Below, piece by piece: positions 3,130 through 19,830 of a stretch of DNA of 25,672 nucleotides (the first letter of the stretch is position 1; every line of letters starts with the position of its first letter). The position numbers and the translations under genes are program-made. The notes beneath the pieces are model-generated. The model ran no database searches and was not told the DNA's origin. It saw only the letters and a program-made list of their open reading frames with translations. Source of the stretch: a virus; the IMG/VR virus record IMGVR_UViG_3300044858_006072, positions 1-25,672 of that record; one strand, 5' to 3'.

Positions 3130-3227
3130 CACGAGGGAAATAGGTGGGCCGGGCAGGATTCGAACCTGCGACCAAGGGATTATGAGTCCCCGGACCAAGG
3201 GGACCCGCACGAGGGAAATCAGGTGGG
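3130..3227. repeat. Direct repeats flanking the tRNA-like att core
   Basis: CACGAGGGAAAT followed by AGGTGGG occurs at 3130-3148 and again at 3209-3227, the second copy with one extra C. The two copies bracket the tRNA 3' half. An inverted partial copy (ATCCCTCGTG) lies at 3264-3273 inside the end of the integrase gene. They are candidate integrase arm sites. Confidence 0.5.
3145..3191 (-). other. attP: attP core: 3' half of a CAT-anticodon tRNA gene
   Basis: Read on the - strand, this is a perfect tRNA 3' half: anticodon stem (one G-T pair) with loop CTCATAA, five-base variable loop, five-pair T stem with loop TTCGAAT, then the acceptor strand CCGGCCC and discriminator A. CCA is not encoded. 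The 5' half (acceptor GGGCCGG, D arm) is absent upstream, so it is not a working tRNA gene. Phages carry such fragments so that integration restores the host tRNA gene. The target should be a host tRNA-Met or tRNA-Ile2 (both CAT) gene. The adjacent integrase supports this. Confidence 0.85.
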
Positions 3228-3259: not shown

Positions 3260-4501
3260 TCAATCCCTCGTGCGGGGGATTTTGTCGCCATCGCGCGACA
3301 AGGCGTCGTTCATGGCGACGCCGGCGGCGGCGACGCTGTCGTGGATGAGGTGGGCGTAGATGTTCATGGTGGTGCTGGTCTGGCTGTGGCCGAGGACGCC
3401 GGAGACGGTGCGGGCGGAGATGCCGGCGGCGATCAATACGCTGGCGGCGGTGTGGCGAAGGCCGTGCAAAGTGACTTTGGGGAGCTCGTTATCGTTGACC
3501 CATTTGGTCCAGGCGTGGGAGAGGGCGTTGGGGGTCATCCATCGGCCGCCAGTGGTGGTGACGATGTGGTCGCCTTCGTCGCGCCACATGCGGCGGGAGG
3601 GTTTGATTTTGTAGAGCATGTAGTGGCGATGTTCGGCCTGTGCGGTCTTCCACGCCGCCAGTGCCTCGAGGGCGATGGGGGGGATGGGGAGCACGCGGTT
3701 GCCGGAGGAGCTCTTGGGGCCTTTGAGCTGGCCTTTGACGCCGGTGGCGGAGACGGTGGCGCGGGTGATGTCGACGGTGGATTTCGTCCAGTCGATGTCC
3801 GACCACTCGAGGGCGATGAGCTCGCCGCAGCGGAGGCCGGCGGAGAGGGCCAGCAGGATCCAGGCGCGCCAGTAGACGGGGGACTCGTCCAGAGCGCCGA
3901 GTATCCACTTGAGGTCGGTGTTCTGGTAGTAGGTGGGCTGCGTTTTCTTGACCTTGGGCGGCCTGGTGGCTTTGCACGGGTTTGACGGGATGTAGAAGCG
4001 GTAGACGGCCTCTTTGAGGCAACTGGAGAGGACGTTGAGCATGCGCCGGCGGGTCTCGCCGGCGAGCCTGGTGGTGCCTTTGCGGCGGTCCAGGCGTTGC
4101 TCCTCTTCGTCGAGCTGCTCGAGCCAGCGGGCGATGTGCTGAGGGGTGAGCTTGTTGAGGGGGACGTGGCCCAGGCCGGGGATGATGCGGTTGCGGAGGA
4201 TCTGGCGGTAGGACTGCTGGGTGGAGAGCTCGAGCTCGCGCTCGACGTGGTCGCGCATCCAGATCGCGGACCACTGGCTGAGGGTGAGGCTGCCGCCGGA
4301 GGGGGCCGGTTTGGCGTGGATGACGTCGTGGGCGTAGGCGGCCGCACGGATGTGCATCTCGGGCTCGCTGGCGGCGTGGATGGTGGTGTAGTGGCGCCGG
4401 CGCGTGCCGTTGGGTTTGAGGCCGTGAGAGACGGTGATTTTCCAGGTATTGGGGCCGCGTGCGGCCCAGGAGTAGGGGAGCTGTGTTTTTTTTGTGGCCA
4501 T
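3260..4501 (-). CDS. int: Tyrosine recombinase, phage integrase
   Basis: A 413-residue site-specific recombinase that should join attP at 3145-3191 to a host tRNA gene. Residues about 1-65 look like an arm-binding domain, about 70-165 the core-binding SAM-like domain (LTLSQWSAIWM onward), and about 190-400 the catalytic domain. The active set is visible: R224 in GLRCGEL, K263, H346 and R349 in LHGLRH, H372 in LGHSQ, and nucleophile Y382 in NIYAHL. It is complete. A stop lies six codons upstream of ATG 4501, so there is no longer form. No close Shine-Dalgarno is seen, which suggests weak translation. It is transcribed towards the att region, as in many siphoviruses of Gram-positive hosts. Confidence 0.95.
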   Translation of the reverse strand: MATKKTQLPYSWAARGPNTWKITVSHGLKPNGTRRRHYTTIHAASEPEMHIRAAAYAHDVIHAKPAPSGGSLTLSQWSAIWMRDHVERELELSTQQSYRQILRNRIIPGLGHVPLNKLTPQHIARWLEQLDEEEQRLDRRKGTTRLAGETRRRMLNVLSSCLKEAVYRFYIPSNPCKATRPPKVKKTQPTYYQNTDLKWILGALDESPVYWRAWILLALSAGLRCGELIALEWSDIDWTKSTVDITRATVSATGVKGQLKGPKSSSGNRVLPIPPIALEALAAWKTAQAEHRHYMLYKIKPSRRMWRDEGDHIVTTTGGRWMTPNALSHAWTKWVNDNELPKVTLHGLRHTAASVLIAAGISARTVSGVLGHSQTSTTMNIYAHLIHDSVAAAGVAMNDALSRDGDKIPRTRD

Positions 4502-5370: not shown

Positions 5371-5979
5371 TCACTGATGGGGGGAATCGATTGGGGGGAA
5401 TCGGTCGCGCCAGGCGTGGCGCCAGATGGATGGAAGGGCGCCGGGGAGGTGGAGGATTTGGGCGGCGCGGAGTGCGTGAGTGGGGGGGGGCCAGAGGGCG
5501 CGGGGGCGCAGGAGGCCGAGGGCGCGCAGTTGGTAGTACATAGCGCGGGTGCTGACCAGGTAGCGGGCGCGCAGGGTGTGCAGCAGGTCGTCGGCATCGT
5601 CCAGAGCGATGGCGTCGGCGAAGACGCGCGTGGCCGGCATGAGGAGGTGCGCGGCGCCGAGCTGGCACAGGCGTTCGAGACGGGCTGGGCACTGGGGGAT
5701 GACGCCGGCATCGATGGCATGATGGATCACCTCGTGCGCGATGGTGAAGCGCAGCTCCTCCACGCAAATTTTGCGGCTGACGATGATGATGCCGGCCGCG
5801 GCGGGCGGCCGCTGATAGCACAAGACCCCGCGGATCCGCGCGGGAGTCGGGCCGAACTTGGCTCGAAGTCCGACCTGGCGCATCACCCTGACGATGTCTG
5901 TGGGAATGTCACCGGCGCAGGTGTCCCATAGCTCAGTCGCCAGTTGTATCACACGCCGATCGGCGTCCGTCTGTGCCAT
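5371..5979 (-). CDS. ImmA/IrrE-family zinc metallopeptidase
   Basis: A 202-residue protein with the zinc-binding motif HEVIH at 82-86 in RFTIAHEVIHHAID, followed by AAHLLMPA at 109-116, as in ImmA/IrrE proteins. The family cleaves its partner repressor (ImmA of ICEBs1) or a stress repressor (IrrE/DdrO). It lies 21 bases after the repressor gene on the same strand, with GAGG upstream of ATG 5979, so both are in one operon. The third ligand usually sits 11 residues before the P of LLMP; here that place is L and the nearest acid is E102, two residues earlier, so activity is likely but not certain. The C-terminal 70 residues (LLRPRALWPPP onward) are family-atypical. Confidence 0.9.
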   Translation of the reverse strand: MAQTDADRRVIQLATELWDTCAGDIPTDIVRVMRQVGLRAKFGPTPARIRGVLCYQRPPAAAGIIIVSRKICVEELRFTIAHEVIHHAIDAGVIPQCPARLERLCQLGAAHLLMPATRVFADAIALDDADDLLHTLRARYLVSTRAMYYQLRALGLLRPRALWPPPTHALRAAQILHLPGALPSIWRHAWRDRFPPIDSPHQ

Positions 5980-6000
5980 CCTTGGCCTCGATTCAATCCA

Positions 6001-6597
6001 TTATTCGTCGGGGTAGGCCTCGCGCAGCATCCGCACCACCAGCTCCACATCGCCGCGATTGATCACGCCGTAGGCATGCAGGCGCGTGGAAAATGCCCGC
6101 ACTTCGGCCTCGAGGTCGTTATAGGGTGGCGGGACGGGCAGGCCGGCGGCATCGAACCAGGCGACGATATCGCGGATATCCATTTTGCGGAGAAATTTAG
6201 TCAGGCGCTCGGGCGCGATGATCGCCGGCGACTCGCCGGCGCGCAGGCGGTCGATCTCCTCGGCGGTGAGCACGTTGCCGGTGAAGAGCCCGATCTGGCG
6301 CGTGCCGTGCAATTTGCAGCGGGCGACCATCGTCGCGAAGACAGTGGCGAGGGCGGGGGAGGGGGTGGGGGAGGGCGTGCAGATACTCCCACCCTTTTTT
6401 TCATCGGTCCTCATCAGCAAGTAATCGACCGTGACCTCGAAGATATCCGCGAGCTTATCGAGCTCCTGGTCTCCAGGTCGAGACCGTTCGAGTTCCCAAT
6501 TAGCAATCGACCCGTCAGTCAGCCCTAGCTTCTCTGCTAAGACCCGTCGTGGCATATCTCCTCTAAGATCTCTCAGTCGTTTTCCGTTAAACGGCAT
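6001..6597 (-). CDS. XRE-family phage repressor (CI/ImmR-like)
   Basis: A 198-residue repressor. I start it at ATG 6597, preceded by a GGGGGAAG run and fitting a promoter at 6619-6647; a longer frame to 6681 would run through that promoter and two operators. Residues 1-66 are an XRE helix-turn-helix (VLAEKLGLTDGSIANWELERSRP, of which GLTDGSIANWE is the recognition part). A Pro/Ser/Thr linker lies at about 74-82. The C-terminal half, with LTAEEIDRLRAGESPAI, may hold a second worn HTH. No S24 (LexA-type) peptidase motif is visible, so release probably depends on the ImmA-like protease encoded next to it. It should bind the TTGAA-N5-TTCAA sites in front of it. Confidence 0.9.
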   Translation of the reverse strand: MPFNGKRLRDLRGDMPRRVLAEKLGLTDGSIANWELERSRPGDQELDKLADIFEVTVDYLLMRTDEKKGGSICTPSPTPSPALATVFATMVARCKLHGTRQIGLFTGNVLTAEEIDRLRAGESPAIIAPERLTKFLRKMDIRDIVAWFDAAGLPVPPPYNDLEAEVRAFSTRLHAYGVINRGDVELVVRMLREAYPDE

Positions 6598-6615
6598 TTG
6601 CTTCCCCCACTGGCA

Positions 6616-6630
6616 TTGAATGTAATTCAA
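6616..6630. promoter_or_regulatory. Operator O1 (TTGAA-N5-TTCAA)
   Basis: A perfect 15-bp site that covers the -10 box of the repressor promoter. Binding here would repress the repressor gene itself. Its centre is at 6623, 38 bp from O2. Confidence 0.75.
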
Positions 6631-6647
6631 ACACGGTCTTTTTGCAA
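6619..6647 (-). promoter_or_regulatory. Leftward promoter of the repressor operon
   Basis: On the - strand, TTGCAA (6647 to 6642) and TACATT (6624 to 6619) are 17 bp apart, each matching four of six consensus bases. The start would be near 6612, about 15 bases before the repressor ATG. Confidence 0.65.
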
Positions 6648-6653
6648 GTCGTA

Positions 6654-6668
6654 TTGAAAAATCTTCAA
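6654..6668. promoter_or_regulatory. Operator O2 (TTGAA-N5-TTCAA)
   Basis: A second perfect 15-bp site, centred at 6661, midway between the two divergent promoters and exactly 38 bp from both O1 and O3. It lies upstream of both -35 boxes. Confidence 0.75.
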
Positions 6669-6686
6669 ATATTTGGTTCAACCATA

Positions 6687-6715
6687 TTGACGTGAAGGTA
6701 CTTCAAGGCTAATAC
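6687..6715 (+). promoter_or_regulatory. Rightward early promoter
   Basis: TTGACG at 6687-6692 and TAATAC at 6710-6715 with 17 bp between. It should start near 6722 and drive the early operon from the Cro-like gene at 6754. Operator O3 fills its spacer and O4 overlaps its start, so repressor binding should shut it off. Confidence 0.65.
6692..6706. promoter_or_regulatory. Operator O3 (GTGAA-N5-TTCAA)
   Basis: One mismatch from the O1/O2 pattern; the inner bases add symmetry (TGAAGGTACTTCA). It sits between the -35 and -10 of the rightward promoter, centre 6699. Confidence 0.7.
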
Positions 6716-6729
6716 TGAGTGAGCTTCAA
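6715..6729. promoter_or_regulatory. Degenerate operator O4 (CTGAG-N5-TTCAA)
   Basis: The right half-site is perfect and the left half matches three of five bases. It overlaps the end of the -10 box and the expected start of the rightward promoter. Its centre is 23 bp from O3, off the 38-bp rhythm. Confidence 0.45.
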
Positions 6730-10785: not shown

Positions 10786-11835
10786 ATGCCGAACCGTATT
10801 CTGAAGGACTCTATCTGTACCAGTGAGACGATCGAGGGGTTGACGGACGCGGAGGAGGTGTTTTTCTATCGGCTGCTGGTGCAGTGCGATGATTACGGGC
10901 GCTTTGATGCGCGGCCGGCGGTGATTCGGGCGCGGCTGTACCCGATGCGGATCGACCAGGTGAGCGAGGCGGATGTGCTGGCGCGGCTGGAGGCGCTGGT
11001 GGCGGCGGGGCTGATTCTGTTGTACCAGGTGGAGGGGCGCGCCTACCTGCAGGTGACGACGTGGGAGACCCACCAGCAGGTGCGCGCAAAGAACAGCAAG
11101 TTCCCGCCGATGCCTGCAGGTGCGCGCGATGGATTGCCGCCTTCGCGCGCCTGCCAGCAGATGATATCAGATGCCAGCACATGCACCCGAGAAGCGAGAA
11201 GCGAGAAGCGAGAAGACGATACCCGAGAAGCGAGCAGCGTCACGCCCGAGGAGGCGCGCGTGGGCCCGCACGAGGCGGCAGCGGCGGCTGGGGGTGGTGA
11301 TGACGCGCTGGGAACGGCGGAGTACGCGGGGGAGCCGGTGGTGGGGCGGTTTGTCCGGGAGGTGTGGGCGCCGGCGTTTCCCGCGGCACCGCTGTTGTGC
11401 TCGACGCTGACGGGGCAGGCGCTGGCGGACTTTGAGCGGGCGATTCTGCAGCATGCCCGGGCGCCGGCCGGGGTGGAGGGGCTGCTGGAGGAGATGCGGC
11501 GGCGGCTGCTGGGGGGCGGCTATCGGGAGCGGGTGTTGGCGAAGATGGCGGGCCAGTGGCACGCCAAAGTGCTGGGGTACCTGACGCAGACGGTTCGGGG
11601 GATCTGGGAGGATGGCCATGATGCTCAATCAGGGGCTGTGCGCGGCGGTGCGGGAGCTGGCGGAGGGCGGGTTGGCCCTCGAGGACACATCGGGCCGGCG
11701 GCCGCCGACGATTACGTCGGCGTGGTCGGCGGGGTGCACGGGGTCGACGAGGCGCTGCGGGCCGCTCTCGTTGGCGGAGATCGAGGGCCTGGTGACCACG
11801 GCGGAGTGCGCGGGAGCGGTGGGGGTGGAGGCTGA
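10786..11835 (+). CDS. Phage replisome organiser / replication initiator (DnaD-like)
   Basis: A frame of 349 residues from ATG 10786 (GGAGGG upstream). The first 110 residues are the conserved winged-helix start of phage replisome organisers: MPNRILKDSICTSETIEGL, EEVFFYRLLVQCDDYGRFDARP, then a strand and W-E-T-H-Q-Q-V-R-A-K. The family binds the phage origin and recruits the helicase loader, here encoded next. Residues about 113-185 are a loose linker; about 185-275 form a helical domain (VREVWAPAFP, LEEMRRRLLGGGYRERVLAKM, VLGYLTQTVRGIW). After residue 277 the frame becomes Gly/Val-rich while lying over the loader gene, so the real protein may end near 11620 or that tail may be non-functional. 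Confidence 0.85.
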   Translation: MPNRILKDSICTSETIEGLTDAEEVFFYRLLVQCDDYGRFDARPAVIRARLYPMRIDQVSEADVLARLEALVAAGLILLYQVEGRAYLQVTTWETHQQVRAKNSKFPPMPAGARDGLPPSRACQQMISDASTCTREARSEKREDDTREASSVTPEEARVGPHEAAAAAGGGDDALGTAEYAGEPVVGRFVREVWAPAFPAAPLLCSTLTGQALADFERAILQHARAPAGVEGLLEEMRRRLLGGGYRERVLAKMAGQWHAKVLGYLTQTVRGIWEDGHDAQSGAVRGGAGAGGGRVGPRGHIGPAAADDYVGVVGGVHGVDEALRAALVGGDRGPGDHGGVRGSGGGGG

Positions 11836-12448
11836 TCACCTGGGGTGCTCTGCTGCGGATCTGCGGGAGCACGTGGACGAGGTGTCGTGGTCGTTGCTGG
11901 CGCGGTATCTGCGGGGCCTGGCGGCGATGGAGGCGGAGGGGCTGGGGTGGCTGGTGGACGGGCCGACGGGGACCGGGAAAACCGCGACGCTGGCGCTGCT
12001 GGTGGAGGGGATCATCCGGCATCACGGTGAGGTGCACGAGCCCCAGTCGGAGGCGACGACGCGGGGGATCACGGCGCCGCGGCCACGGGTGATCATCGTG
12101 AGCGAGACGACGATCGCCGACCATTTCAGCCGGCGCGACAAGAGCGAGGCGTGGGAGGCGGTGAAGACGAGTTGGGAGCTGGTACGGCACCTGGTGATCG
12201 ATGATCTGGGGAGCGCGCATTGGGAGGCGTGGGCGTCGAACGGCTGGTATGACCTGATCAACGGGCGGTCGAAGCGGCAGTTATCGACGCATGCGAGCCT
12301 GAACGTGGACCCGTCGGTGGTGGCGGTGGGGCCGAACGCGGCGCGGATCCGGAGCCGGCTGTTGCAGCGGAGTTTTCAGTTGACGATGACGGGGGCGGAT
12401 CGGCGGGTGCGGGTGTCGCCACGTAGATTGTTGGACCTTGATTTTTAG
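11618..12448 (+). CDS. DnaC/IstB-type helicase loader ATPase
   Basis: A 276-residue AAA+ ATPase that should load the host replicative helicase at the phage origin. Walker A is GPTGTGKTA (bases about 11960-11986), Walker B is HLVIDDLGS (about 12190-12216), and the sensor region is RIRSRLLQRSFQLTMTGADRR near the end. GGGAGG at 11606-11611 fits ATG 11618 (six-base spacing); ATG 11612 and 11621 are alternatives. The frame overlaps the organiser gene by 218 bases, with strong third-position G/C bias over much of the overlap, which favours this frame there. Its N-terminus (about 110 residues before Walker A) should hold the helicase- or organiser-binding part. Confidence 0.9.
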   Translation: MMLNQGLCAAVRELAEGGLALEDTSGRRPPTITSAWSAGCTGSTRRCGPLSLAEIEGLVTTAECAGAVGVEADHLGCSAADLREHVDEVSWSLLARYLRGLAAMEAEGLGWLVDGPTGTGKTATLALLVEGIIRHHGEVHEPQSEATTRGITAPRPRVIIVSETTIADHFSRRDKSEAWEAVKTSWELVRHLVIDDLGSAHWEAWASNGWYDLINGRSKRQLSTHASLNVDPSVVAVGPNAARIRSRLLQRSFQLTMTGADRRVRVSPRRLLDLDF

Positions 12449-12467
12449 GATTGAAGGATTACCTTGA
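12436..12467 (+). repeat. 32-bp leader element, copy R3
   Basis: Matches R1 at 28 of 32 positions. The last A of its right-hand CCTTGA is the first base of ATG 12467, and its inner GAAGGA provides the Shine-Dalgarno, so the element is part of the translation start. Confidence 0.75.
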
Positions 12468-12700
12468 TGAAAAAGACGACGGGGAGGGTGGTGCGGGTGA
12501 CGACGCGGTATGTGCCTCGGGATGGGGATGAGTTGCGGCAGGCTGACGTGCGGATTGTGGTCAACACGATCGAGGATGGGATGGTGTTTTATCGGTCGAT
12601 TAGCGGTGCCTATGAGCGCAACTTCTTCAAGCCGACGAACGAGTTTATTTCGGCGGCGAAGGGGTCGGTGCTGCTGCGGCAGGAGGGGAACGAAGGGTAG
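12467..12700 (+). CDS. Small protein of unknown function, last early gene
   Basis: A 77-residue protein from ATG 12467, which directly joins element R3; GAAGGA lies eight bases before. It reads as a strand-rich, basic protein (GRVVRVTTRYVPR, DVRIVVNTIEDGMVFYRSI) with an aromatic patch (YERNFFKPTNEF). No known family. It is the last gene before the promoter and terminator at the early/late boundary, where some phages encode late-gene activators or antiterminators; that is only a positional hint. Confidence 0.65.
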   Translation: MKKTTGRVVRVTTRYVPRDGDELRQADVRIVVNTIEDGMVFYRSISGAYERNFFKPTNEFISAAKGSVLLRQEGNEG

Positions 12701-12702
12701 CC

Positions 12703-12731
12703 TTGACAAACAGGTGTTTTATTGCTAGACT
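12703..12731 (+). promoter_or_regulatory. Near-consensus promoter, probable late promoter
   Basis: TTGACA at 12703-12708 (perfect) and TAGACT at 12726-12731 with the ideal 17-bp spacer. The expected start is A12739 or A12740. It begins two bases after the stop of the last early gene and faces the packaging, head and tail genes. Confidence 0.8.
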
Positions 12732-12732
12732 T

Positions 12733-12769
12733 GCCGGCAACTTGAGTCCTTCAGGTTGCCGGCTTTTTT
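12733..12769 (+). terminator. Strong intrinsic terminator overlapping the late promoter start
   Basis: A 13-bp stem (12733-12745 with 12751-12763, one G-T pair), five-base loop GTCCT and six T's at 12764-12769. RNA coming from the early genes carries the whole stem and should terminate. RNA begun at about 12739 lacks the first six G+C-rich bases of the left arm. Confidence 0.9.
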
Positions 12770-12830
12770 CTACCCACGCTCTCTCCCCTGCCTCGCTCGA
12801 GGCCTGTGCGCTCTCACATGGAGGCGCAGC

Positions 12831-13043
12831 ATGCTCCAGGCGTTTACCCTGCTGATCAATGGCCATGACGTGGCACTGACAGAGGTGTCAGTGTCGTTCA
12901 CGGAGCGCGGTCTGGTGATCTCCTGCATTACCCTTCCCCTTGATAACGACGACGCGGCACGTGCGCGACAGATATTGTCCCTGTGCGGGTGTGATGGCAC
13001 GGGGGACCGTGTAGACGGTGCTGACGGTGTTGACGTGGGGTAG
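12831..13043 (+). CDS. Small late-operon leader protein, unknown function
   Basis: A 70-residue protein; GGAGG at 12821-12825 selects ATG 12831 (the open frame before it covers the terminator). It has strand-like stretches (FTLLINGHDVALTEVSVSF, RGLVISCITLPL) then a helix (DDAARARQILSLCG) and an acidic tail with a short DG(A/V)DG pattern. The strand-helix order recalls the early module proteins, but no clear residue match supports homology. It is the first gene after the late promoter. Function unknown. Confidence 0.6.
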   Translation: MLQAFTLLINGHDVALTEVSVSFTERGLVISCITLPLDNDDAARARQILSLCGCDGTGDRVDGADGVDVG

Positions 13044-13136
13044 TGGGCTGTCTGGCCTGCTGCGTTCTCCTCTGGGCTTTCTTCTGGTTCTTCTTTGGCT
13101 TCCTTCGCTGCGCTTTGGGGCGCGTGAGGTCTTCCG

Positions 13137-13310
13137 ATGATTTTTTCCCTGTTGGTGTTGGCGTTGGCGTCGATGCGGGCGCCGGTGTGCTGGGTGGTGG
13201 CGCCGGCGCGGGACGTGTGGATCGAGTCGCGGCTGCGGCCAGCGCGGAATCGGGCTGGGCGGCGGGCGATTGACCGGATGCGGCTGGTGCCGGATCTCCT
13301 CTTTGTGTGA
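13137..13310 (+). CDS. 57-residue protein with hydrophobic N-terminus
   Basis: ATG 13137 has GAGGT at 13126-13130, seven bases before it. The product begins MIFSLLVLALASM, a short hydrophobic stretch, and ends basic (RPARNRAGRRAIDRMR). Third positions are almost all G or C, which supports a real gene; the other open frame here (from 13043) reads as a poly-aromatic and glycine run and is less credible. The size and layout fit a small membrane protein or an HNH-like remnant, but no motif decides. It ends eight bases before the next gene. Confidence 0.5.
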   Translation: MIFSLLVLALASMRAPVCWVVAPARDVWIESRLRPARNRAGRRAIDRMRLVPDLLFV

Positions 13311-13317
13311 CCTCCTC

Positions 13318-13488
13318 ATGTTTTGCGAGCACGCTATTGTTGACCTCGAGCGCGAGCTGGCGTACCACGCCGTAGTGCGGTGCGTGGAGTGTGGTGAGCC
13401 GTTTGCGGTGCCGATGGAGGGGCTGGAGGAGACGGAGGTGCCCGGGCGGTACCGGCTGCTGGCGATTGACGTGGACGACGATGACTGA
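13318..13488 (+). CDS. 56-residue C-x2-C protein
   Basis: Starts at ATG 13318 eight bases after the previous stop; no good Shine-Dalgarno is seen, so it may depend on translation of the gene before. The product has CVECGEPF, a zinc-knuckle half, and C3 with H5 near the N-terminus (MFCEHA), which could complete a C/H site. It ends in an acidic run (IDVDDDD). It lies directly before the small terminase gene, where small zinc proteins are common in phages. Family not recognised. Confidence 0.6.
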   Translation: MFCEHAIVDLERELAYHAVVRCVECGEPFAVPMEGLEETEVPGRYRLLAIDVDDDD

Positions 13489-13508
13489 CCATATGGGGCT
13501 GACCAAAA

Positions 13509-13964
13509 ATGACAAAAGCCGCGGTTAAAGCCAATGTCGCAGCGCGTCGGGAGCGACTGCTGAAGCTCATCACCGAAGACGGGCACAAGTCGGCGTCGGT
13601 GCGTGAGCTGGCGCAGTTGCTGACGACGGCCGGCTACGAGTGTAGTCATCCCACGGTGGTCAGCGATTTGAAGGCCGTGCGGGCGCAGCTGGCGGCCTCG
13701 ATCGAGGCGATGGGCGTCGACCTGGTGGGGGAGCAGATTGCGGACCTGAACGCGCTGTATGACACGCTGTGGCCGGATCGGGCAGATCCGAAGGTGGCAG
13801 CGATACTGATTAAGATCAGCGAGCGCAAGGCGAAGCTGCTCGGGCTGGACGCGGCGCAGCGGGTTGAGGTAACCGGAGACAAAGGCGGTCCGGTGGCGGT
13901 GACCGTGGATACCGATCCGATTTTGCGGACTCTGGCGGCGCGGGCGGCCGGCGAGGCGTTGTGA
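13509..13964 (+). CDS. terS: Terminase small subunit-like DNA-binding protein
   Basis: A 151-residue protein. Residues about 15-65 form a winged helix-turn-helix (RRERLLKLITEDG, VRELAQLLTTAGYECSHPTVVSDLKAVR). Near the end, ISERKAKLLGLDAAQRVEVTG matches the K-L-L-G-L-D-A-(P/A)-x-(K/R)-x-E-V segment seen at the end of many phage small terminases. The next gene starts two bases after its stop and encodes the large subunit. It should bind the packaging start site on phage DNA and regulate the motor. Start at ATG 13509; the ribosome site is weak. Confidence 0.75.
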   Translation: MTKAAVKANVAARRERLLKLITEDGHKSASVRELAQLLTTAGYECSHPTVVSDLKAVRAQLAASIEAMGVDLVGEQIADLNALYDTLWPDRADPKVAAILIKISERKAKLLGLDAAQRVEVTGDKGGPVAVTVDTDPILRTLAARAAGEAL

Positions 13965-13965
13965 T

Positions 13966-15486
13966 GTGGCGACGTACACCTATGACCAGTTGTGGCAGAT
14001 GTATCTGGTCGCCCAGACGGACGCTGAGCGGCTGGCGATCCGGCAGGAGCTGATCGCCAACGCGCGGGAGCATCCGGCGGATCAGGCGCCGCTGATCAGC
14101 GTGACGGACATGGGGGAGCCGATGCTGCCCCAGCTGTTTCACCGGCGGTGGATCGATGCGATTCGCGAGTATCGGCGGCTGCTGCTGTTGGCCCCGCGCG
14201 GGCACGCTAAAAGCGAATGGATGTCGGGGCAGTTTGCCTTGCACGAGATCGGGCGCGATCCGCGGATTCGCATCCTGCTGGTGAGCTCGGATGACGACCA
14301 GGCGGCGATGCACACGCGGCGGATCAGCCAGTTGATCGACACGGCCGCGTACCGGGTGATTTGGACCTCGCTGCCGGCGCTGGATGAGTGCAGCAAGCTG
14401 CAGTTGCGGTTGGACGTGCCGGGGGCGCATACGACCTGGCGGGGTGAGGGCATTAAGAGTATTGGCCCGGGGCCGCGCGCGGATCTGATCATCCTGGATG
14501 ACGTGGTCAGCCTGAAGAACAGCCGGACGCCGACGCTGCGCCAGGAGATCATCTCGACCTACAACACGGTGATTCGCGGGATGCTGCATCCGGTGAAGGG
14601 CCGTGTTCTGGCGGTGGGGACGCCGTACTACCAGGGCGACCTGTACGAGTATCTGGCGGGCCTGGTGGATGTGCAGGGGCGGTCGATCTATCAGGTCATC
14701 CGCGAGAGCGCGCTGTATCGGGATGGACTGCCGCAGCACTCGGACGATTTTTCTCCTGGGGTGACGCCGCTCTGGCCGGATCGGTTTACCGTGGAAGCCT
14801 TGCAGCAGGTCCGGCAGGAGATCGGCGAGCTGGACTTCGGGAGCCAGTACCTGTGCACCATCCTGACGGCCACCGGGGATGTGTTCAGCCGCGGGATGTT
14901 CTTGCCGATTTCGCGCGAGGAGCTGCCCCAGCTGGTCGAGGTGTGGCTGATCAGCGACACGGCGACGAGCACCAGCAACGAGGCGGACGCGATGATCCTG
15001 ATGACGATCGGGCGTGACGCCGAGAGCAACGTGTATCTCCTCGAGACCGTCAAGGGCAAGTGGGCACCTTTGCAAGCTAAGCAACTGTTGGTTGACACTC
15101 TAAAAGCTTGCCGGGCGCTCTTCAAGCGTACCTTCAGGGGTTTGGCTTTTGAAGACACTAAAGAAAACTATGTTTTCGGCGCGTGGATCAGCGAAGACCG
15201 GACGCTTGGCCATCCGACGATCGTAAAGAACGGCGGTTTGAGCAAGTACGAGCGCGCGCGCTGTATTCTGCCGACGCTGGAAAACGCCCCGGTTTATTTT
15301 GTCCGTGCGCCGTGGAATGGCCCGCTGCTGGACGTGCTGTGCTCGTTCAAAAAAGAGGGTTCGCGGATGCCGGACGATGAGGTGGATACGCTGGTGGTGG
15401 GGTGTGCCCAGCTCTGGAAGATTCGCTTCACGCGCGACTTGAAGCCGCCGCCGGGGCGGTCGATCCAGCTGCTCCCAACTTTGTAG
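13966..15486 (+). CDS. terL: Terminase large subunit
   Basis: A 506-residue packaging motor and nuclease, with GTG start at 13966. The ATPase part has Walker A-like APRGHAKSE at 76-84, Walker B DLIILDD at 173-179 and coupling motif VGTPYY at 217-222. The C-terminal nuclease has acidic residues in LISDTATS (D331) and DDEVDTLVVG (D474), as in the RNase H-like fold of TerL. It docks on the portal, pumps DNA into the prohead and cuts it. Whether packaging is cos or headful cannot be told from this window; a TerL phylogeny would indicate it. Confidence 0.95.
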   Translation: MATYTYDQLWQMYLVAQTDAERLAIRQELIANAREHPADQAPLISVTDMGEPMLPQLFHRRWIDAIREYRRLLLLAPRGHAKSEWMSGQFALHEIGRDPRIRILLVSSDDDQAAMHTRRISQLIDTAAYRVIWTSLPALDECSKLQLRLDVPGAHTTWRGEGIKSIGPGPRADLIILDDVVSLKNSRTPTLRQEIISTYNTVIRGMLHPVKGRVLAVGTPYYQGDLYEYLAGLVDVQGRSIYQVIRESALYRDGLPQHSDDFSPGVTPLWPDRFTVEALQQVRQEIGELDFGSQYLCTILTATGDVFSRGMFLPISREELPQLVEVWLISDTATSTSNEADAMILMTIGRDAESNVYLLETVKGKWAPLQAKQLLVDTLKACRALFKRTFRGLAFEDTKENYVFGAWISEDRTLGHPTIVKNGGLSKYERARCILPTLENAPVYFVRAPWNGPLLDVLCSFKKEGSRMPDDEVDTLVVGCAQLWKIRFTRDLKPPPGRSIQLLPTL

Positions 15487-15493
15487 GTGACAT

Positions 15494-16924
15494 ATGGCCA
15501 ACCATCCTCTCAGCAATCAGATCATGGCGGAGCTCAAGCGCACCCAGCGCTTGCGGACGCTGTATAAGGGCGATCACGGCATGGTTTTGCTGGACGCGCG
15601 CGGGCGCAGCGGGCCGGTGAAGTACGTGCCGATGAATTATCTGGGGGATGGTTTATCCAAAGGCATCACGGAGCTGGTGTGGAGCCGGTACCCGACGATT
15701 ACCGTCGTGGGCAACGAGGCGCAGCAAAAGGCCATTGACCGCCTGACGAAGCTGCTGCTGATTCGCAACCTGGTGAAACCGACGTCGATTGCCTGCAGCT
15801 ATGCCGGGCACTGCGCCTGGCGCATGCGGATTCACCCGAACACGGGGGAGCCGACGCTGCAGATCTGGGGGGCGGAGCACGGGCAGACGTATACGATCGA
15901 GTCGTTTGACGGGTCGCCGGCGCATGCGATTGCGGTGTCGCTGTGGCATACCCGGGCGATCGCCGGCGGCAAAAAGGTCGCGGTGCAGGAGCGCTTTACC
16001 CATGTGCTGGACGCCAAGGGGCGGATTCAGCCCGGAGTGACGCATGAGACTCGGGCGTACAAAGCCAATGACGACGGCTCGATCGGAGAGAGCCCGGTGG
16101 GGCTGGAATACGTGTATCCGGAGGCCTCGCGGCCGGAGCCGGAGGTGTTGTATCCAGCGCTGACGCGGCTGCCGGTGTTTTTGATTCACAACCCGGATCT
16201 GGACGGCGACGGGTGGGGGGACTCGGACTATAGCGACGGGCTGATCAGTTGGCAGCACGAGTACAACCTGACGTATGCGCGGCGCAGCTACAGCTTGCGC
16301 CTGAAGTCGTCCCCGCGGGTAACGGTCGATCCGGCGCTGGCTGATGCCGGAGGCGGAATCGATTTGGACAGCGCGATGATTCAGTATCGGACTCCGGACG
16401 GCGACATGGCGTCGATGGAGGTCAAGGCGGACAACTGGGATGCCGCGCTGGCCGAGAGTGCCGTGCAGATCGACAAGTTGCGCGAAGACTGGTACACCCT
16501 CACGCCGTTGACGCCGGCACTGGTGGGCGATGTGAAGGGCGGGGAATCGGGCACGTCGCGGCGGTTGTCGCTGACGTCGACCATCGCCACCGTCTACGAT
16601 CGGCGCCAGCAGGCAGAGCCGGCGCTGATGTGGGCGTATCAGTGCGCGCAGGAGCTCGAGGCGATGACGGGCACGGCGGACGCGCCGGTGGTTGAAGACA
16701 TGTCGTTTCTCTGGGCCCCACCGATCCCTGAGGACCTCGAGGAGATGGAAGCCAATTCGCGGACGACGATCAACGAGGTGCGGGCGAATCTGCGGTCGCT
16801 GGAGTTGGCGGTAGCCAGGCTGAATCCGACGATGACGAAGGCGCAGGTGCTGGAGGAGTTAGACCGGCTGCTGGCCCTTGAGGAAGCGCGACAGGAAGCG
16901 CAGACGCAGAATCCGGGCTTGTAA
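15494..16924 (+). CDS. Portal protein, SPP1 gp6-like
   Basis: A 476-residue protein; AGGTGA lies before ATG 15494. It follows the terminase directly and precedes the minor head gene, the standard portal place. It begins with LYKGDHGMVLL, has a middle with ARRSYSLRLKSSPRVTV, and a long acidic helical C-terminus (PIPEDLEEMEANSRTTINEVRANL, LEELDRLLALEEARQEAQ), like the crown/wing helices of SPP1-type portals. It should form the dodecameric ring at one head vertex through which DNA enters and leaves. Family naming rests on these features and context. Confidence 0.88.
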   Translation: MANHPLSNQIMAELKRTQRLRTLYKGDHGMVLLDARGRSGPVKYVPMNYLGDGLSKGITELVWSRYPTITVVGNEAQQKAIDRLTKLLLIRNLVKPTSIACSYAGHCAWRMRIHPNTGEPTLQIWGAEHGQTYTIESFDGSPAHAIAVSLWHTRAIAGGKKVAVQERFTHVLDAKGRIQPGVTHETRAYKANDDGSIGESPVGLEYVYPEASRPEPEVLYPALTRLPVFLIHNPDLDGDGWGDSDYSDGLISWQHEYNLTYARRSYSLRLKSSPRVTVDPALADAGGGIDLDSAMIQYRTPDGDMASMEVKADNWDAALAESAVQIDKLREDWYTLTPLTPALVGDVKGGESGTSRRLSLTSTIATVYDRRQQAEPALMWAYQCAQELEAMTGTADAPVVEDMSFLWAPPIPEDLEEMEANSRTTINEVRANLRSLELAVARLNPTMTKAQVLEELDRLLALEEARQEAQTQNPGL

Positions 16925-16962
16925 GCTGTCTTCGCTGCGCTGCGAGGCGCTGAGGTGTGTGT

Positions 16963-18285
16963 ATGCCGATGAAGAATCCTTTGACTGCGCCGACGCCGGA
17001 TCCGGTGACCGAGCAGCTAATTGCGATCTACGACTCGATGGACGCGATCGTGCGCGAGCGGTTGGTGTGGGCGACGCGGCAGTATATCCAGGGGGACTGG
17101 GATCTGCAGCGGGCGGCGATGATAAAAGCGCAGATTGCGGAGACGATGGCGCTGCTGGGGGCGACGGTCGACAACCTTGAGGGGAACGCGCTGAACACCG
17201 TGTGGAGCCTGGGGACGGCGGACGCGATCGCGGAGCTGACGGCGATGGGCGTGCCAGAGGCGCGGCTGCAGTCGGCGATGTTTAACCCGGCGGCGGTGGA
17301 GAGCCTGGCGCGCGATCTGGCAAAAACCCGGGGCGAGTACTTGGGGACGATCAGCGGCGGCAAGGGTTCAATTTTGCGCCAGGTCGATGATTATCTGCGG
17401 CGTTTGAGCGCGAATGAGCTGACCCAGGGCGTGGTGCTGGGAGATCAGCCCTATTTGGTAGGCATGCGGATCCGCGAGGCGGCGATTAACGAGCAGCGCC
17501 TGCAAGTGCTGGCGGGCGAGATCGACCGCGTGGGCACAGTGCCCTATTTCGACAAGGACGGTAACGAGCTGGGACGGCACAGCCTGCACAGCTATGGGCA
17601 GATGGCCAGCCGCACGGGGCTGGCGCGGGCGCGTGAGGAAGGAAACATGGCGGTGCATGAGGCGGCCGGCATCGAGGTCTTCCAGATTAATAAGACGGGC
17701 ACGTTGTGCTATATCTGCCGGCCGTTCGAAGGGCAGACCTTTCGGTATGACTGGAGCACGAGCCCGGAGTATCAGAGATTCCCGCTCCTGCCGCGTGAGG
17801 CGCCATTTCATCCCAACTGTTACCACCGCCGCGTGCCGGTGAGCTATCCGGACGATCTGGAGGCGATGAGCGCCGACGAGCTGGAGACGCTGGGGCGGGA
17901 CAATCGCGGGCTGTACGCCTACATGCGGGACGAGATGCCCCAGGGCAAGGAGCTGATGTGGGCGGCGCGGCATGGGTTCGCGACGGAAGCGCAGCAGCGC
18001 ACGTACCGGCGCATGGCCCACCAGGTGGGCATGCCGGAGAAAGACCTACGCGGGCCTCGGTGGCGCTATGCCGGCATCGAGTCGCGGCGTCCTGAGGCGA
18101 TCGGGCGGATGATCATGGATCCCCGGTTGCGCTACAAGGACGCGATGGCCAGCGAGACCCAGGCCTTTATGCGGTCGCCCAGCTATAAGAAGCAGCGACC
18201 GAAGAGTTTGACCCCAGCGGCCCAGCGCCGTGCGGTGGCGGCGATGCTGCGCGAGGAGCGGGCGGCGGCGCGAATGGCGAGATAG
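16963..18285 (+). CDS. Phage minor head / head morphogenesis protein
   Basis: A 440-residue protein. GAGGT at 16952-16956 selects ATG 16963 over GTG 16957. The centre has TLCYICRPFEGQTF (C249, C252) and PFHPNCYHRR (H283, C286, H288), the Cys/His pattern of the minor capsid and Mu F-like head morphogenesis families. It should sit inside the prohead near the portal and help assembly or DNA entry. Its C-terminus is basic (RRAVAAMLREERAAARMAR). It lies between portal and scaffold genes, as expected. Confidence 0.88.
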   Translation: MPMKNPLTAPTPDPVTEQLIAIYDSMDAIVRERLVWATRQYIQGDWDLQRAAMIKAQIAETMALLGATVDNLEGNALNTVWSLGTADAIAELTAMGVPEARLQSAMFNPAAVESLARDLAKTRGEYLGTISGGKGSILRQVDDYLRRLSANELTQGVVLGDQPYLVGMRIREAAINEQRLQVLAGEIDRVGTVPYFDKDGNELGRHSLHSYGQMASRTGLARAREEGNMAVHEAAGIEVFQINKTGTLCYICRPFEGQTFRYDWSTSPEYQRFPLLPREAPFHPNCYHRRVPVSYPDDLEAMSADELETLGRDNRGLYAYMRDEMPQGKELMWAARHGFATEAQQRTYRRMAHQVGMPEKDLRGPRWRYAGIESRRPEAIGRMIMDPRLRYKDAMASETQAFMRSPSYKKQRPKSLTPAAQRRAVAAMLREERAAARMAR

Positions 18286-18306
18286 CAATTTTAACGGAGG
18301 ACACTC

Positions 18307-18831
18307 ATGCCCAAGACGATTGAAGGCGTCGTGTATTACACCGAGGCCGAACTGGCGGAGCAAAAAACCGCCGCCGCCGCGGCCGCGAAGGCCGAAGCAG
18401 ACAAGGCCGCTGCGGCTGACCTGCAGGCCGCGCAGACCAAGGCGACCGAGAGCGAGGCCGCGACTGCGGCCGCGAAGGCGGAAGCGGAAACGCTGAAGGG
18501 CACGGCTGCCGAAAAAGAGGCCGCGTTGGGCAAGGCAACCCGGCACACCACGCTGGTCGAGAAGCTGGTGGGCGCGGGCTATGGCTACGGCCAGGCCAAG
18601 CTGCTCGCGGAGTTGCCGGCGCTGGGCGCGGTCGACCTGGCCAAAGAGACCGACCTGACGGCCGCGATCGGCACGGTGAAAACGGCGTTTCCGCCGGCGC
18701 CGGCAGATGCGGGAAAGAGCGGCGCCGAGAACCTCGGAAAGGGCGGCGCAAACCCGGGCGATTCTACCATTCCAGTCGCCAATACGCTGAAGGGTGCGTT
18801 GGCCGAGAAACTGACCCCTGCCAAGGTGTGA
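18307..18831 (+). CDS. Capsid scaffolding protein
   Basis: A 174-residue protein with GGAGG before ATG 18307. Residues 13-80 are alanine, glutamate and lysine-rich heptads (AEADKAAAADLQAAQTKA, AAAKAEAETLKG), a long coiled coil. The C-terminal end is short and basic (EKLTPAKV), as in scaffold proteins that bind the capsid. It lies just before the major capsid gene. It should guide prohead assembly and then be removed; there is no protease gene in the window. Confidence 0.82.
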   Translation: MPKTIEGVVYYTEAELAEQKTAAAAAAKAEADKAAAADLQAAQTKATESEAATAAAKAEAETLKGTAAEKEAALGKATRHTTLVEKLVGAGYGYGQAKLLAELPALGAVDLAKETDLTAAIGTVKTAFPPAPADAGKSGAENLGKGGANPGDSTIPVANTLKGALAEKLTPAKV

Positions 18832-18885
18832 CGCGTGAGTTGTTCACACCGTTATTTACACCCCAACCTGTGAAGGAGTTCTCTC

Positions 18886-19830
18886 ATGGCGATTACCCTG
18901 GCTGAAGCCAAACTGCAATCGACGGACCGCATTGTGCAGGCCGTCATCGACGCGTTCCGCAAGAGCTCGTACCTCATGGATACCCTGATCTTCGACGACA
19001 CGGTCACACCGGGTGGCGGTGGGTCGCTGGTCTACGGGTACAACTACGTCCTCACCCAGACCGGCGCCGCGGTGCGCGCGCTGAACGCCGACTACACCCC
19101 GGGCAACGCCGTGATCGATCGCAAGACGGTCACGCTGGTGCCGCTGGGTGGGAAGTACCCGATCGACCGCGTGGTGGCCGCGAGCAATGGCCTGGTCGAC
19201 CGTGTGGCCTTTGAGACCGAGCAGAAGGTCAAGGCGACCAGCGCGCTGATGAGCGACCTGGTTGTCAACGGCAGCGATGAGACGGACTTCGACGGGATCG
19301 ACGCGAGCTGCGCCGACGCCAACGTGATCAGCGGCACAACGATCGATCTCACCACCAGCGCCAATATGGATACCAACAAGAATTTGGCCATCGATGCGCT
19401 GAATCAGGCGCTGTCGCTGGTGCCGGGGGCCAATGCGATCCTGACCGGGCGCATGGGCCGACTGAAGATGATGAGCATCGCCCGTCGTCTCGGCTACATG
19501 TCCGTGAGCGAAGACGCCTTCGGCCGCCCGGTGGAGACCTTCGCCGGCATTCCGATCGTCGACCTCGGCGCCAAGGCCGGCAGCACCGATCCGATCGTGC
19601 GCGAGACGGACGGCGGCGCCACGCCGGTGAGCCTCACCGACATCTACGTCGTTCGCCTGGGGCTGGATGGCGTGCATGCCGCGACGCTGGCCGGGCTGCC
19701 GATGATCAACATCATCACGCCCAATACCAGCCTGGCGGATGCCGTGCTGTATGGCGCGGTGGAGATGGTGGCGGCCGCCGTGGTTCGCCAGCAGGACGCC
19801 ATCGCGAAGATTGAAGGGATCCTAATCTAG
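18886..19830 (+). CDS. Major capsid protein, HK97-fold
   Basis: A 314-residue protein; AAGGAG before ATG 18886 gives a strong start. N-terminal helix (SLAEAKLQSTDRIVQAVIDAF is its general character), then GGGGSLVYGYNYV, an E-loop-like part, and P-domain helix (NGLVDRVAFETEQKVKATSALMSDL). The latter half has an A-domain pattern (AILTGRMGRLKMMSI) and ends in strands (ADAVLYGAVEMVAAAVV). It has the size of compact HK97-type capsid proteins, lies after scaffold and before connector genes, and is followed by three hairpins that may help protect its mRNA. Confidence 0.88.
   Translation: MAITLAEAKLQSTDRIVQAVIDAFRKSSYLMDTLIFDDTVTPGGGGSLVYGYNYVLTQTGAAVRALNADYTPGNAVIDRKTVTLVPLGGKYPIDRVVAASNGLVDRVAFETEQKVKATSALMSDLVVNGSDETDFDGIDASCADANVISGTTIDLTTSANMDTNKNLAIDALNQALSLVPGANAILTGRMGRLKMMSIARRLGYMSVSEDAFGRPVETFAGIPIVDLGAKAGSTDPIVRETDGGATPVSLTDIYVVRLGLDGVHAATLAGLPMINIITPNTSLADAVLYGAVEMVAAAVVRQQDAIAKIEGILI

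Follow-up and report, generated by a model that had tools for sequence, protein, structure and literature searches.

Composite promoter–terminator cassettes known as PeSLs have reportedly been described in T4-like phages, by Arbiol and others in 2010 and by Comeau and others in 2014, and RB49 is the type phage. In the lambda PR'-tR' layout, the terminator is situated wholly downstream of the transcription start and Q is needed. The name PeSL is spelled out, in a passage of one source on the RB49 type, as 'promoter early stem-loop', with composite promoter–terminator motif as an alias (PMC4503421). In the archaeal virus HGTV-1, a conserved motif ahead of genes, formed by a TATA-like element and an inverted repeat, has been likened by its authors to the PeSLs (PMC3950731).

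The locus described here belongs to a 65% GC virus record of 25,672 bp (the window, that is, the whole stretch of DNA analysed), which may be a fragment. At 12703–12769 a sigma70-like promoter runs into a terminator in such a way that the predicted start falls within the left arm of the hairpin, leaving the promoter's own RNA, as folded, without the base of the stem (the start-in-arm register). The PeSL is the closest known kind: in both, a terminator stem-loop is fused with a strong sigma70-like promoter in a gap that separates co-oriented genes, and RB49 carries the same start-in-arm form between genes 56 and modB. The differences are also clear. PeSLs occur as several similar copies per genome, which can recombine with one another, whereas the window scan found one composite in 25,672 bp of a record that may be incomplete; PeSLs serve the early genes of a T4-like myovirus, whereas the window belongs to a temperate phage unrelated to T4, with integrase and repressor, where the element heads the terminase/portal unit at the early/late boundary and bears no trace of being mobile or of genes having been shuffled. 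Since it departs from PeSLs in copy number and in lacking a T4 context, the element is called a PeSL variant and not a member, although its sequence suggests that it would work like a start-in-arm PeSL. With lambda PR'-tR' it shares a sigma70 promoter with a terminator close behind, both placed where the late unit begins, but the predicted start is inside the left arm and no complete terminator lies downstream of it. As to HGTV-1, the likeness consists in the pairing of an inverted repeat with a promoter element, and the differences are an archaeal promoter and many copies per genome. To our knowledge, the start-in-arm register is not known for the HGTV-1 motif.

Genome context and anatomy of the element

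The window has a temperate layout, with integrase and repressor followed by early and then by terminase/portal genes. The integrase (3260–4501) and an ImmA-like protease with a CI-like repressor (5371–6681) are on the minus strand; Cro-like, excisionase-like, replication initiation and DnaC-like genes run rightward on the plus strand up to 12448. The last early gene is a 78-aa ORF (12464–12700, plus strand) with no Pfam or PHROGs match, whose TAG (12698–12700) ends 2 nt before the -35 hexamer. After the element, the first likely ORF (12831–13043, plus strand, 70 aa) is preceded by GGAGG at 12820–12824 and matches no family, and the late unit (13509–19830, plus strand) contains the position of a putative small terminase, the large terminase, portal, a head protein and the major head protein; major tail proteins are also found among the genes after the element. 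The composite is therefore placed exactly at the early/late boundary, after the last early ORF and before the terminase/portal unit. Scans of the early genes against PHROGs and Pfam recognised no antiterminator family, most early ORFs having no match there.

Two other features of the record can be mentioned. A glycosyltransferase gene (group 1, 404–1477) is located at the late end of the phage, ahead of an endolysin-like gene. Beside the integrase, positions 3148–3195 of the minus strand resemble the 3′ half of a tRNA whose anticodon is CAT; no complete tRNA exists at that place, which is probably the phage attachment site. Because the lysis and integrase genes are on opposite sides of this tRNA half, the record seems to be a circular or packaged form and not the edge of a prophage.

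All parts of the element are on the plus strand. The -35 hexamer TTGACA (12703–12708) is separated by a 17-nt spacer from an extended -10, TGC-TAGACT (12723–12731; hexamer at 12726–12731), and the stem-loop occupies 12733–12763 (arms 12733–12746 and 12750–12763), with a T6 run at 12764–12769. The stem has 14 pairs (8 G-C and 2 G-U) if the last G-U is included, and 13 in the minimum-energy fold; its outer arms, GCCGGCAAC and GTTGCCGGC, flank a core at 12742–12754. By the rule of 5–10 nt after the -10, transcription is predicted to start at 12736–12741, inside the left arm. The original prediction of TTGACA-17-TAGACT followed by a 13-bp hairpin with T6 at 12733–12769 is thus confirmed, and both elements proved to be alone of their kind in the window. 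On both strands, TTGACA-17-TGcTAGACT (12703–12731) is the sole sigma70-like site with at least 10 of 12 matches, and the hairpin the sole terminator with a stem of 10 bp or more followed by T5. In dinucleotide shuffles, 0.32 promoters of that score are expected per window (0.03 with the TG), together with 0.055 (about 0.06) strong terminators, and a promoter and a terminator so arranged that transcription begins within the left arm are expected about 5e-6 times.

Intrinsic terminators require a stem close to the U-tract, and it is here that the two RNAs differ. The folding of both, which had been proposed as a check, gives -23.0 kcal/mol for the whole stem of RNA initiated upstream, and -7.6, -5.3 and -3.8 kcal/mol for RNA begun at 12738, 12739 and 12740, respectively, whose remaining stem ends 5–7 unpaired nt short of the U-run. 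Starts from 12736 to 12741 remove the outer 3–8 bases of the left arm and with them the base of the stem, so that the argument is independent of the exact start at 12739. Promoter-initiated RNA would accordingly be expected, from these folds, to escape termination. Further downstream, a fold predicts base pairing between the GGAGG ahead of the first late ORF and GCGCTCTC, which closely precedes it (12806–12831); this structure might exert translational control on the ORF.

Recurrence of the start-in-arm register

The register has been searched for in IMG/VR with the pattern TTGACA-N17-TANNNT-N(x)-GCC-N(12-30)-GGC-TTTTT, and sites were kept if the stem had 8 pairs or more. The complete scan for x = 0–6 gave 72 matches, of which 57 are distinct (that is, not letter-identical, so one phage family may count more than once) and 29 have such stems, with offsets peaking at 0–2. 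In the equally wide and complete scan for x = 12–18, 51 matches and 9 such sites were obtained; the register 0–6 nt after the -10 is therefore three times commoner than that at 12–18 nt (29 versus 9). Location between the stop and start codons of co-oriented genes was observed in 17/29 sites of the first class and 3/9 of the second and, among the matches listed, in 3/27 at 24–30 nt and 12/45 at 40–46 nt. When the 30 sites (including that of the window) are folded with an RNA that starts 7 nt after the -10, the median hairpin energy is -3.0 kcal/mol in place of -13.6 and a median of 4 unpaired bases is left ahead of the U-run. The DNA around the fetched sites, a small sample, contained 2 sites at offset 0–9 against 0.4 expected. 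Because the same layout is present in many unrelated phages, it looks like a reusable design and not an accident. One observation counts against the composite reading proposed below: TTGACA promoters located 24–30 and 40–46 nt upstream of GC-rich terminators, whose RNA would be expected to stop there, are no less frequent in the collection, with at least 120 matches in each class, more than in the 0–6 class. Our guess is that such promoters make short terminated RNAs. Transcripts of this kind, very short and terminated, may be widespread in phages.

Among named phages, the layout is found in the Krischvirus group, RB49 included. In the gap between genes 56 and modB, a stop codon is followed by TTGACA-17-TATTAT, GCCTCC...GGAGGC, T6 and ATG; the RB49 stem has an internal mismatch, was missed by the strict scan and was found by reading the gap. 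In this element, the hexamers are annotated as a promoter in GEC-3S and the adjoining hairpin as a terminator in Ec_Makalu_002. A second family of sites is that of Certrevirus (phiTE and its relatives). A comparison by eye of phiTE with A73, a distant phage of the Vequintavirinae, shows that the -35 (TTGAC), TGTAAT-T and the zero offset are kept, and that the stem changes from GCCCTC/GAGGGC to ACCCCT/GGGGGT with compensation, including G-C to A-T and T-A to C-G. No named relatives were found for another two composite sites (L025 and L042). The idea that the design is special to the window phage is consequently not supported, given that RB49 and others carry the same register, and these sequences suggest that it is more general than the original prediction held.

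The register is one among several in RB49. Most of the RB49 gaps examined have other layouts, with a terminator followed by a promoter, a stem in the -35/-10 spacer or a stem over the -10. Many early promoters of this phage (NC_005066, L201–L203) have perfect stems, either in the -35/-10 spacer, for example TTGACAGGGGATCGGTGATCCCCTATACT, or across the -10 without a T-run.

A proposed composite boundary element and its alternatives

The interpretation we hold to be reasonably probable is that of a composite terminator–promoter placed where two co-oriented units meet. Polymerase from the early operon would make the complete stem and stop at 12764–12769; polymerase starting at the embedded sigma70 promoter would begin within the left arm, would not make the part of the stem abutting the U-run and would continue into the terminase, portal and capsid genes. 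A single element would in this manner insulate the late unit from early read-through and supply its own start without an antiterminator. Anatomy, the low chance expectation, folding and a register that recurs and survives changes of the stem give partial support to this claim of the original prediction; from the same model we infer promoter use, the position of the 5′ end, termination efficiency and timing, which stand as predictions. The passage of early polymerases over the promoter would be expected to occlude it, and a polymerase that retains sigma after termination could initiate again at the promoter, some 30 bp behind. Recycling after termination has been shown in vitro for the RNA polymerase of E. 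coli (PMC6978380, PMC11347151).

In the lysogen of a temperate phage, a late promoter so close to consensus should be active, which counts against the composite. The need to keep it silent in this state is the main reason why our confidence goes no higher than the level given above. Four copies of the motif TTGAA-N5-TTCAA, with 0, 0, 1 and 2 mismatches, lie at 6616, 6654, 6692 and 6715 (window 6616–6729) between the CI-like and Cro-like genes, the one at 6692 inside a promoter-like site (6687–6716); they are likely repressor operators. An operator of this immunity type at the late promoter was considered and rejected, near-exact copies being confined to the immunity region. Silencing may instead come from a further repressor, from poor reading of the promoter by the host sigma, from leader control through the predicted pairing of the ribosome site of ORF 12831, or from true PR'-like antitermination.

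This last possibility corresponds to a delayed promoter of the lambda PR'-tR' type, constitutive but stopped at or just after the hairpin until an antiterminator made early lets the polymerase through. It would also account for lysogen silence, and it agrees with a temperate layout in which a strong promoter heads the late unit, with the finding of no repressor operator at the promoter and with the many early ORFs without known function. It fits worse than the composite, however, because RNA begun at the promoter cannot, as folded, form the stem by the U-run and because no antiterminator family was recognised among those early genes that were scanned, most of them without a match; moreover, the window has no second strong terminator downstream. 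We regard it as unlikely. Still less probable is that the dyad is mainly an operator, at which a phage regulator represses the late promoter, the terminator role being secondary. An inverted repeat covering about +1 to +30 would allow a bound protein to block the promoter, the lysogen problem would be solved, and the inversion of the core described below would leave the dyad nearly unchanged as a site; on the other hand, a T6 directly after the repeat is terminator-like, the repeat lacks the spacing of the immunity motif and its close copies elsewhere in the window do not exceed chance. Finally, that only the terminator of the early unit is real, with a fortuitous promoter-like sequence and a late unit starting elsewhere, is similarly improbable: a match to the consensus is in itself no proof of function, and the data require no further strong late promoter, other promoter types being outside the scan, but extended promoters of such quality are expected 0.03 times per window at 65% GC, this one sits exactly at the functional boundary and the same composite is found elsewhere.

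An allele with an inverted core and its significance

Relatives of the window are scarce. None was found at the DNA level in named phages, searches of IMG/VR with the terminase, DnaC and a small ORF protein recovered only one near-identical contig, a terminase protein search of GTDB genomes gave no relative, and the 18-mer GCTAGACTTGCCGGCAAC had four scattered matches in GTDB genomes, about the chance level for 257 Gb. The sole relative, contig IMGVR_UViG_3300046006_002921 (L001), is identical to 11721–19614 of the window (7.9 kb) except at 12742–12754, where it carries the reverse complement of the core with one further base change. The two alleles, written as arm, core and arm, are GCCGGCAAC-TTGAGTCCTTCAG-GTTGCCGGC in the window and GCCGGCAAC-CTGAAGGGCTCAA-GTTGCCGGC in the contig; the promoter, the 9-bp outer arms and the T6 are the same. 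The stem with the inverted core is weaker (-19.1 versus -23.0 kcal/mol) because G-U pairs turn into C-A mismatches, and RNA begun at 12739 likewise folds without the terminator stem. Both sequences thus appear to preserve the composite. An assembly artefact was considered and seems less likely as the origin of the inverted core, since the 9-bp arms are shorter than usual assembly k-mers and the contig has an extra substitution.

A template-switch event is the likely source of the inversion. Loop inversion by template switching during replication, in which the core of a hairpin is reverse-complemented and the flanks are kept, has been reported in rRNA genes (PMC8794818). The change between window and contig is of the same kind, with unchanged flanks. 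The loops in rRNA genes are mostly of 4 nt, with a maximum of 7–8 nt (PMC8794818), whereas here the core has 13 nt and belongs to a phage terminator beside a predicted start. This allele is new here and goes beyond what had been expected of the locus. That a start inside a terminator is a general, convergent boundary device of phages (insulator plus promoter), whose core flips in this population as a reversible switch tuning early read-through, is a long shot. If true, the flip would swap the first transcribed bases and the strength of the stem (-23.0 versus -19.1) at a rate exceeding that of all other changes across the 7.9 kb. The inverted-core allele is in itself a natural experiment on the evolution of hairpins at transcription starts.

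Since the terminator arm starts 0–4 nt after the -10 in many phages, the proposal can be tested directly as a general rule, and annotators gain a simple way of reading DNA now marked as a promoter in one phage but as a terminator in its relative. If the proposed composite is right, one 67-bp element would separate two phases of expression with no protein, placing a stop and a fresh start at the same site, which suggests a compact insulator–promoter part.
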